From: Sutterellaceae bacterium | GTDB taxonomy: Bacteria; Pseudomonadota; Gammaproteobacteria; Burkholderiales; Burkholderiaceae_F | Direction of reading: 5' to 3' | NCBI GenBank assembly: GCA_030531135.1 | Contig: JAUNOJ010000044.1 | Location: 1 to 10,616, forward strand | DNA length: 10,616 bases | Shown here: positions 2,953-5,114 of the stretch, piece after piece | Layout of the letters: each line of letters begins with the position of its first letter | Numbering within the stretch: position 1 is the first letter of the stretch | Notes under the pieces: model-generated | Databases searched by the model: none | Told to the model about the DNA's origin: nothing | The model's input: the letters and a program-made list of their open reading frames with translations, nothing else | Program-made: the position numbers and the translations under genes

Positions 2953-3159
2953 ATGGCACATGGTGTTGTCAAGTGGTTCAATGATGCCAAGGGTTTCGGT
3001 TTTATCACGCCCGACGAAGGCGGCGAAGATTTGTTCGCTCACTTCTCTGCTATTGAAATCGAAGGTTTCAAGACCCTGAAGGAAGGCCAGAAGGTGACGT
3101 TTGAAGTCGTCACCGGCCCCAAGGGCAAGCAGGCCAGCCACATCAAGCCCGAAAAGTAA
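2953..3159 (+). CDS. cspA: CspA-family cold-shock protein
   Basis: This 68-residue protein is a single cold-shock domain, a five-stranded beta barrel that binds single-stranded RNA and DNA and melts RNA secondary structure. RNP1 is seen as KGFGFI (residues 13-18) and RNP2 as LFAHFS (27-32). The start [10 protein letters not shown] and the end [15 protein letters not shown] are typical of the family, and the length matches. AAGGAG (2941-2946) sits six bases before the ATG. It may or may not be cold-inducible: many paralogs are not, and the symbol is given at family level only. In related genomes, from memory, a csp gene is often followed by clpS and clpA; here it is followed by its own terminator and an AT-rich island instead. 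Confidence 0.96.
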
Positions 3160-3217
3160 TTTCAAGGCTTGGCGTTGAGCGTTTCTTTAGAAGTGCTCTG
3201 ACGGCAAAAGATACGAG

Positions 3218-3257
3218 AACACCGCGCGGAGTTGAAAAATTTCGTGCGGTGTTTTTT
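3218..3257 (+). terminator. Intrinsic terminator of the cold-shock gene
   Basis: AACACCGCGCGGA (3218-3230) pairs with TTCGTGCGGTGTT (3241-3253), 13 pairs including two G-T, followed at once by a run of T to 3257. It lies about 60 bases after the stop codon. Confidence 0.9.
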
Positions 3258-3298
3258 CGTGTGCATAAAATGTCTATATCAGTTCACTGCTTGACGTC

Positions 3299-3307
3299 TG
3301 CGATAAT
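3299..3307 (+). promoter_or_regulatory. Possible extended -10 promoter for the first island gene
   Basis: TGCGATAAT reads as an extended -10 (TG, one base, GATAAT), placing a start site near 3314 and a short leader before the gene at 3337. A TTGACG at 3291-3296 lies too close to be its -35, but could pair with AATGAT (3313-3318) at a 16-base spacing. Confidence 0.35.
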
Positions 3308-3336
3308 CTCGGAATGATCGTTATGGAGTTTAGTGC

Positions 3337-3906
3337 ATGTGGGATCGACTAATTAGTGTAGCTGTTAATCAGGCGCCAATAGGATTGGTGTTCTGTGTAT
3401 GTGGCCTGTTGCTGCCATCTGATTATTTTCACGAGGAAGCTTTGAGAGTTCGTGAACAGATCTCAGCATTTTTATTTTGGTTTGGGCTTTTTGAATTCTC
3501 GGTAGTATTGGTCAATTCAAGTTTTTGGATAGTGAAGAAAATCTTTACATACATTAGGGAGGAGAGACGTATAAATGCTACGGTGGATGAGTTTAACAGC
3601 CTTAAGGTCACAGAACGCAAGCTACTGATAGATGCATATATCTCAAGAGAGACGATTTTTGAGGTTGTCAAGGATGCTAGCGTTCAAAGGTTATTAAAGT
3701 GGGGGTATCTTGAAGAACTGAGTGGTTCTTACAATCCGATGGATGACACGATTGATTTGAATGTTTCATTGAGCCGTTCAACGATCGAATTGTTTCAAAA
3801 GCGACTAAATAAGCTTCGCAAACGGCTCTCATTTGATTCATCGGAAAAAGCGAATGTTTGCAGTGAAGGTAGAATTCGATTTTTGTTATCAAAAGTCAAG
3901 AGATGA
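3337..3906 (+). CDS. Two-TM membrane protein, SieB-like (superinfection exclusion) candidate
   Basis: This 189-residue protein has no motif I can name with certainty. Two hydrophobic segments are visible, about residues 13-27 and 43-66, followed by a basic stretch (KKIF...REERR) and then a cytosolic region. That region contains FNSLKVTERKLLIDAY (86-101) and a block around SVQRLLKWGYLEEL (115-128), and it ends in a Lys/Arg-rich helix. This layout of two N-terminal TM helices plus a small C-terminal domain with an E(R/K)xLL helix matches my recollection of SieB, the prophage protein that blocks superinfecting phages at the inner membrane. The ATG is preceded by GGAG (3325-3328) with an 8-base spacer. 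Base composition is far more AT-rich than the neighbours, which suggests recent acquisition. The gene at 4115 has the same plan. An unrelated two-TM sensor or toxin-type protein is an alternative. The gene is well supported; the family is a guess. Confidence 0.8.
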   Translation: MWDRLISVAVNQAPIGLVFCVCGLLLPSDYFHEEALRVREQISAFLFWFGLFEFSVVLVNSSFWIVKKIFTYIREERRINATVDEFNSLKVTERKLLIDAYISRETIFEVVKDASVQRLLKWGYLEELSGSYNPMDDTIDLNVSLSRSTIELFQKRLNKLRKRLSFDSSEKANVCSEGRIRFLLSKVKR

Positions 3907-3929
3907 GAATTGGCAACCCCAACTTCTGA

Positions 3930-3958
3930 TTGAGCTGGTGGCTTTCATGTTGTATTAT
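3930..3958 (+). promoter_or_regulatory. Possible sigma70-type promoter for the second island gene
   Basis: TTGAGC (3930-3935) and TATTAT (3953-3958) are spaced by 17 bases in the 208-base gap between the two island genes. The start site would be near 3965, leaving a leader of about 150 bases. No terminator was seen after the first gene, so read-through is also possible. Confidence 0.35.
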
Positions 3959-4114
3959 TCGCCATTTGTCCTTCCTGTGGATAAACTGAACCATCAGTCT
4001 TGCTCGGCCTTATTGCTAGCAGTACAGACATCTCCTTTATTTGTGTGTTTGTTTATCATTTTCCCTCAGTTGGGTTAATCTCCACTCTCCTGACCAAAAA
4101 ATTTAGGTTTCCAA

Positions 4115-4657
4115 ATGTCTGATTTGGGCAAATTATTAGTGTTTTTGCAAGGCAGGCCTGCGATGATCCTTCTCATTTCAGTAGTGATTGTTGCATTCAT
4201 ACCCTTTGAAAGCTTGGCCGAGTTCAAACAAGAGTACGGGGTTTGGGTGACGCTTGCCGGGGTGATAGCGGGTTCATCTGTGTTCGTGAATCTACTGTTT
4301 GTGTTGAAAGACGGTGGAGTGATGCAGATGATCCGTAACTGGAAGGAAGAGAAAAGAAAGAAAAAGGAGTTCGAACTTTTGTCGCCGGCCCAACAATTGT
4401 TAGTATTGAATTTATATTTTGGGGGCATGGCGGGTAGCTATGTCGATGATGATCTCGAACCAGTCAAGGAGCTAATCAATGACGGTTTTGTGACGTGGGG
4501 TTGCATCACCGTAGGAGAGGGAGTTCTCTTGGAGTTGACAAGTCCTGCTCAAGATTTTATTAAGAAAAATAAAGATCAAATGAAATGCTTGAGAAAAAAC
4601 CTCATAAATCAAGGCATACACAGCCAGGTTTTTGATTGGATTGTGTTGCAGAGATAG
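4115..4657 (+). CDS. Second two-TM membrane protein, SieB-like candidate (distant paralog)
   Basis: This 180-residue protein has the same plan as the gene at 3337: hydrophobic segments at about 17-30 and 43-64, a strongly basic linker (NWKEEKRKKKEF, 75-86), then a cytosolic domain. That domain opens with FELLSPAQQLLVLNLYFGG (86-104), comparable in position to FNSLKVTERKLLIDAY in the first protein, followed by DDLEPVKELINDGFV (112-126) where the first has DASVQRLLKWGYL. Sequence identity is low, so the two are at best distant relatives. The ATG at 4115 has only a weak AGG (4105-4107), seven bases upstream. The gene is AT-rich like its partner and lies just before the rplM leader. SieB-like phage exclusion at the inner membrane is the best suggestion; a membrane protein of unknown function is the safe label. 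Confidence 0.78.
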   Translation: MSDLGKLLVFLQGRPAMILLISVVIVAFIPFESLAEFKQEYGVWVTLAGVIAGSSVFVNLLFVLKDGGVMQMIRNWKEEKRKKKEFELLSPAQQLLVLNLYFGGMAGSYVDDDLEPVKELINDGFVTWGCITVGEGVLLELTSPAQDFIKKNKDQMKCLRKNLINQGIHSQVFDWIVLQR

Positions 4658-4806
4658 GGAACTGAGTTTTGAAGGCCTTTATTTTGTGGGTAGACGTCAA
4701 TAAACCAGAGAGAGTTGAGCGGAAAGAGGATTTGTTTTCGAGTTGAGAGCGTTAGTACGTTTGCTGCTGACCTCTATCCTGAGGGTGGCAATCAGGGCAA
4801 ATTTTT

Positions 4807-4836
4807 TTGTTCAGCCCCCTAGCTTTTTTGTATAAA
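4807..4836 (+). promoter_or_regulatory. Candidate promoter of the rplM-rpsI operon
   Basis: TTGTTC (4807-4812) and TATAAA (4831-4836) are 18 bases apart. A start site near 4843 would give a leader of about 270 bases. TATCAT at 4843-4848 is an alternative -10 with a poorer -35. Confidence 0.45.
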
Positions 4837-4867
4837 TTCGGGTATCATTACGCGTCTGATTTTCCCG

Positions 4868-4984: not shown

Positions 4985-5114
4985 GTCTGCCTTATTTTTG
5001 TGACCCGACGACGGTTTTTGTCAAATGTAGCGGCTTCGGTCGTTATGTAAAGCACGAGCGCCATCTTGAGCGAGACAAGAGTCCATCGTCAATTGAATCA
5101 ATTAGGTGAAAACA

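Follow-up and report, generated by a model that had tools for sequence, protein, structure and literature searches.

What are two adjacent genes for small membrane proteins doing between a cold-shock gene and rplM in a Sutterellaceae bacterium? The original prediction was that they form a tandem pair related to SieB, the classic exclusion gene of lambdoid phages. We followed this up across the whole contig of 10,616 nucleotides (hereafter the window), whose other genes include a superoxide dismutase gene and a DUF192 gene, both checked in Pfam, and what we take to be csp, rplM, rpsI, argC, yajC, secD, secF and xseA, named by eye from the sequence. We consider it somewhat more probable than an even chance that the pair arrived by horizontal transfer as a superinfection-exclusion module of two genes, of SieB type, and now stands alone between csp and rplM. 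The features concerned are as follows.

3163..4835, no strand: insert found in this genome only; limits approximate, from blastn against the csp-rplM regions of nine congeners
3211..3262, + strand: hairpin plus T run that follows csp; RNA fold
3337..3906, + strand: orfA, 189 amino acids, ATG start; SieB family protein with a long helix and a winged-helix-like cytosolic domain
4115..4657, + strand: orfB, 180 amino acids, ATG start; SieB-like protein with an orfA-like layout and a different cytosolic domain

Two genes in an AT-rich stretch

The two same-strand open reading frames of 189 and 180 residues are as first described in size, strand and coordinates. Among 500 single-base shuffles of positions 3163-4835, none gave an ATG-initiated frame of at least 180 amino acids (the longest was 175). 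The stretch had also been called an AT-rich island, and this holds for both G+C content (0.393 for orfA and 0.431 for orfB versus 0.523-0.585) and GC3 (0.392 and 0.511 versus 0.591-0.746), in which the two genes lie below all 10 other window genes measured, two of these being cut by the window ends.

Each protein was expected to have two N-terminal transmembrane segments, a basic linker and a small domain, and both hydrophobicity and the structural models agree with this predicted topology. Non-overlapping hydrophobic stretches (>1.2) span residues 8-26 and 42-60 of orfA and residues 17-35 and 45-63 of orfB; a basic stretch and then a small C-terminal domain follow in both. Judged from hydrophobicity and the models, orfA and orfB would share the layout of SieB, in which two membrane segments near the N-terminus precede a cytosolic domain at the C-terminus.

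Membership in the SieB family

Against the Pfam SieB family (PF14163; gathering cut-off of 26 bits), orfA scores 37.5 bits. The score of orfB is 20.6 bits (20.1 if begun at codon 17), below the cut-off, and we therefore term it SieB-like rather than a member. In a scan of the bacterium's own genome, the adjacent orfA and orfB were the two best SieB matches (37.7 and 20.1 bits), with the third at 12.6 bits. Because proteins that are not SieB by eye reached up to 18.9 bits among 67 genomes of the family, the score of orfB is insufficient alone for a SieB claim. The assignment to SieB is therefore upheld for orfA, whereas orfB is a probable SieB relative, being below the cut-off but linked to the prophage protein P0003 (see below) and the second-best match of its genome, directly beside orfA.

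Profiles of our own gave results that depended on P0003. We built a SieB profile from 85 of 91 proteins (P0004-P0094, with six outside 150-215 amino acids dropped) together with lambda and P22 SieB. Without P0003, this profile picked out neither protein (4.4 bits for orfA and 6.9 for orfB, with 7.4 for the best of 400 local shuffles). Once P0003 was included, orfA scored 17.6 and orfB 16.9 bits versus at most 7.7 for shuffles, and inclusion of orfA as well gave orfB 19.2 bits versus at most 10.6. The cytosolic half of orfB alone scored below zero in all three profiles. In single hhalign comparisons with seven SieB proteins including P0003, orfA gave E = 1.7e-5 (probability 78.7) and orfB E = 8.2e-5 (probability 60.8). 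When an alignment that included both proteins was used for a database search, 92 proteins were returned, with orfA among them and orfB missing.

At positions conserved in at least 90% of 42 aligned proteins, an alignment dominated by gammaproteobacterial SieB and inspected by eye, orfA has retained the two N-terminal prolines along with L89 and L97, but not T90, G118, K122, F141 and W145; orfB has retained the two prolines along with L89 and G124, the others being absent. Neither PADLOC nor NCBIfam had a convincing match to orfA or orfB. Since PADLOC likewise missed lambda and P22 SieB, and NCBIfam missed P22 SieB and P0004 (a close relative of lambda SieB), absence from these collections says nothing about the pair.

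Split similarity to a prophage protein

P0003, from a sister genus (genome G009, L045:9450-10064), is the one other SieB protein above the cut-off among the 67 family genomes. Its neighborhood includes a large terminase gene of lambda type and a primase-like gene, and it was therefore assigned to a prophage. In single BLASTP comparisons, P0003 matched orfA with E = 4e-12, and its first 86 residues matched the start of orfB with E = 2e-8. Comparison by halves divides this similarity between the two genes. The membrane halves of orfB and P0003 are identical at 24 of 72 positions (z = 9.7), and the cytosolic halves of orfA and P0003 at 32 of 81 (z = 16.3), with 0 of 1000 shuffles as good in either case. 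The membrane halves of orfA and P0003 are weakly similar (z = 2.8, 19 of 1000 shuffles as good), and the cytosolic halves of orfB and P0003 are at chance level (z = −0.3, 623 of 1000). P0003 thus resembles orfB in its membrane half and orfA in its cytosolic half, whereas it differs from both in being a single protein, in the greater length of its charged linker and in its prophage setting.

Between orfA and orfB themselves, BLASTP gave E = 4.8, and the similarity of both the membrane halves (z = 0.2, 350 of 1000 shuffles as good) and the cytosolic halves (z = 0.7, 247 of 1000) was at chance, so direct paralogy is not supported by sequence. The cytosolic domains had been described as opening with similar helices; a helix does begin at residue 91 in both models, but the sequence likeness claimed for this region is no higher than chance. 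That the two are diverged relatives is still plausible, with the amendment that each resembles a different half of P0003 and neither directly resembles the other.

The split match suggests exchangeable modules, with membrane and cytosolic halves that evolve and are exchanged separately. A bolder generalization, which we put forward tentatively and hold to be doubtful, is that SieB-type proteins are two-module machines whose membrane and winged-helix modules are swapped independently, that the present pair consists of two diversified versions serving as stand-alone chromosomal defense, and that the sister-genus prophage carries a recombinant of an orfB-type membrane module and an orfA-type sensor. 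With its halves matched to different halves of a single prophage protein, the natural pair offers ready material for domain swaps, which would tell the phage-choosing part from the acting part.

Predicted structures

The models of orfA and orfB, of modest confidence and based on SieB alignments, consist of a membrane hairpin followed by a long helix and a tail that resembles a winged helix. Foldseek found 0 matches to the orfB model at E = 0.001 in PDB and BFVD. The best solved look-alikes of this model were MarR/ArsR-type regulators and NLR winged-helix domains, and its best viral fold match was Q38660 of P22, labeled 'initial portion of N operon' (E = 0.1, prob 0.97), which by its size and place is probably SieB. 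The structure search with the orfA model gave nothing convincing. By sequence, no solved structure matched orfA, and orfB had one match (E = 0.49).

These look-alikes bear on the idea that orfB is not a SieB in function, but a small, unrelated membrane protein that ends in a winged helix, for example a regulator of orfA bound to the membrane, and has only the anchor in common with SieB. Its subthreshold Pfam score, the regulator-like folds and a C-terminal half that matches neither orfA nor P0003 would fit this idea. We nevertheless hold it to be very improbable, given an N-terminal half that resembles P0003 far above shuffles, a rank second only to its neighbor among the SieB matches of the genome, and a best viral fold match to Q38660.

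The csp-rplM spot in related genomes

The ~1.6 kb that holds both genes was without a DNA match at the corresponding place in all nine congeners, although its flanks matched by blastn. The left limit of the insert falls at 3151-3163, and the right limit at 4834-4851 in six of these relatives; in the remaining three, the right-hand flank match begins at 5048 or 5102. No SieB match was found in the nine congeneric genomes at E = 0.01. The expectation that the pair is variably present between the cold-shock gene and rplM was therefore borne out, as none of the nine has a SieB match in its genome, nor insert-matching DNA at this spot. The orfA-orfB pair is probably foreign.

All 10 genomes of the genus have csp next to rplM, with csp inverted relative to rplM in four of the nine congeners (G011-G014). 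The gap between them (395-3256 bp in the nine congeners, L036-L044) contains no recognized gene in G012, G013, G016 and G019, isocitrate dehydrogenase in G015, G017 and G018, a porin-like gene (by eye) in G014, and, in G011, a TnpB-like gene (Pfam Cas12f1-like TNB) together with what looks by eye like a piece of a sulfatase; gene content was viewed for part of G014 and for G016 beyond its start, and for G015 through neighbor, blastn and isocitrate dehydrogenase comparisons. Because the gap holds metabolic, porin-like or TnpB-like genes or nothing recognized, we regard the spot as generally variable and not as a defense hotspot, and its genes unconnected with defense count against the exclusion-pair reading. 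Isocitrate dehydrogenase lies beside csp in 4 of the 10 genomes (G015, G017, G018 and, outside the gap, G011). It has no match in the bacterium's own assembly, and the other five genomes have only a shorter, more distant match. As the own assembly is 87.6% complete, we give no direction for the displacement of this gene.

Site-specific integration was considered and set aside, as there was no tRNA, no Rfam match and only short two-copy repeats. The earlier statement that no integrase is nearby has a limited reach, because the contig ends with the window.

Expression signals and gene organization

Each gene is preceded by its own ribosome-binding-like site (GGAG 8 nt upstream of the orfA ATG, AGGT 6 nt upstream of the orfB ATG), and 208 bases separate the two. 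Downstream of csp, the RNA fold of positions 3200-3265 reaches −32 kcal/mol (z = −5.3; none of 200 shuffles did as well), and its hairpin is probably both the csp terminator and the left limit of the insert; it is absent from the list of a consensus terminator scan. Promoter-like sites (5 versus 3.3) and terminator-like sites (2 versus 1.8) occur at shuffle level.

Such signals, no higher than those of shuffled sequence in a gene-poor, AT-rich stretch, could be expected of debris from a decayed prophage or other foreign DNA without present function, and the relatives of the pair do lie in a prophage (P0003) and in lambdoid phages. We think it quite unlikely that the pair is debris, as both frames are open over their full lengths and have start sites, no other phage gene was recognized in the insert and there are no flanking repeats of note.

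The arrangement of the genes also allows for a joint unit, in which exclusion would fall to orfA, with orfB as its regulator or as its partner in a mixed oligomer. The precedent is Esc of P22, an N-terminally shorter sieB product that restrains SieB; the P22 record places it in the sieB frame from codon 25 and notes that the product 'inhibits SieB'. orfA and orfB are adjacent, on the same strand and alike in layout, and orfA has an in-frame TTG at codon 36 (3442-3444), after the first membrane segment. GAGG lies 5 nt upstream of this TTG, which, by sequence match only, could be an internal start like that of Esc. We judge a joint unit to be unlikely, considering the 208-base spacer, the separate ribosome-binding-like sites and the finding of P22 SieB and its relatives as single genes in the genomes searched. 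If it were right, Esc would be comparable as a second SieB-derived product acting on SieB, whereas it differs in arising from an internal start within one gene; orfA and orfB are separate, diverged genes.

Distribution of SieB

SieB genes above the cut-off are rare and scattered, occurring in 2 of 67 genomes of the family, 2 of 399 of the order and 7 of 369 of the class (own genome counted each time), as well as in 2 of 14 control genomes. None of the eight other SieB-bearing genomes has a second SieB on the same contig (search to E = 1); weaker matches in three of the eight sit on other contigs. Nor did a local profile show a second SieB at any of 25 SieB loci; most of these have flanks of no more than 1.5-3 kb, L082-L089 have similar scores, and L052 and L077 seem to be the same sequence.

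From the 67 family genomes, a profile combining orfA, orfB and P0003 retrieved these three proteins and, beyond them, a single weak partial match (E = 0.0024); from the 399 order genomes it retrieved nothing but the own pair. Searches for public protein relatives returned only the own sequence for both orfA (127 candidates) and orfB (69 candidates). By tblastn, no orfA relatives were found in phages or plasmids and no orfB relatives in phages, and viral contigs had no match to P0003, orfA or orfB. No paper on SieB pairs, whether tandem or chromosomal, came up among the titles and abstract openings listed. Systems of this kind are known; the tandem arrangement without recognized phage genes, together with the split homology, appeared in none of our searches.

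Gene neighborhoods were viewed at two SieB loci, with five neighbors each. In Vibrio penaeicida (L074:1830-5453), SieB adjoins Abi_alpha (PF14337), whose protein also matches PADLOC candidate PDC-S47, and lies near a cytidine-deaminase-like gene. These neighbors fit a defense setting. At the Cupriavidus locus (L079), no defense gene was recognized among the five neighbors.

A proposed mode of action

Little is understood of how SieB is triggered and how it acts at the membrane. Passages of a published article (PMC10883804) call sieA and sieB 'less well-understood' and report that P22 SieB stops phage development midway as macromolecular synthesis ceases.

Like SieB of P22 and lambda, the present proteins have a similar size, two membrane segments, a basic stretch and a small cytosolic domain, and orfA exceeds the family cut-off. 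Unlike them, orfA is highly diverged (it scores 37.5 bits, and the lambda and P22 proteins reach 103.5 and 101.4), and there are two genes in tandem without any other recognized phage gene around. By family, we infer that orfA, and less firmly orfB, encode exclusion proteins of the SieB sort; judged from family alone, the two probably protect the bacterium against phages.

Each protein would be anchored by its two-helix membrane hairpin and carry a winged-helix-like cytosolic domain, which might detect a product or process of phage growth; phage recognition by this half is a guess. The membrane part would then halt phage development midway, as P22 SieB does. Because the cytosolic domains of orfA and orfB differ, the likeliest division of labor would be two specificities that feed the same kind of membrane output. 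In this scheme, transfer from elsewhere, defense, sensing by the tail, membrane output and division of labor are what we infer.

In favor of an exclusion module we count the Pfam score of orfA, the second-ranking SieB match of the genome (orfB) next door, the split P0003 match, the low G+C content, the absence from all nine congeners, the rarity and scatter of SieB, the Abi_alpha neighbor in Vibrio and the phenotype of P22. Against it we count the score of orfB below the cut-off, the 18.9 bits reached by proteins that are not SieB, the null result of the profile without P0003, the lack of orfB among the 92 proteins of the database search, the matchless cytosolic half of orfB and the lack of phage, plasmid (orfA) or viral relatives.

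Additional observations

A candidate for a third, broken SieB, hydrophobic by eye, at 3833-4078 was rejected: an hhalign comparison with seven SieB proteins returned E = 0.38 across 7 columns, and Pfam had no match to this frame, with one chance-level row for its C-terminal part. The region is a short hydrophobic open reading frame (81 amino acids, TTG start) that overlaps the end of orfA and the spacer. Elsewhere, locus L053 (G675:C95) carries a short SieB frame whose 106 residues reach no further than the membrane part, and its Pfam match covers model positions 3-71 only.
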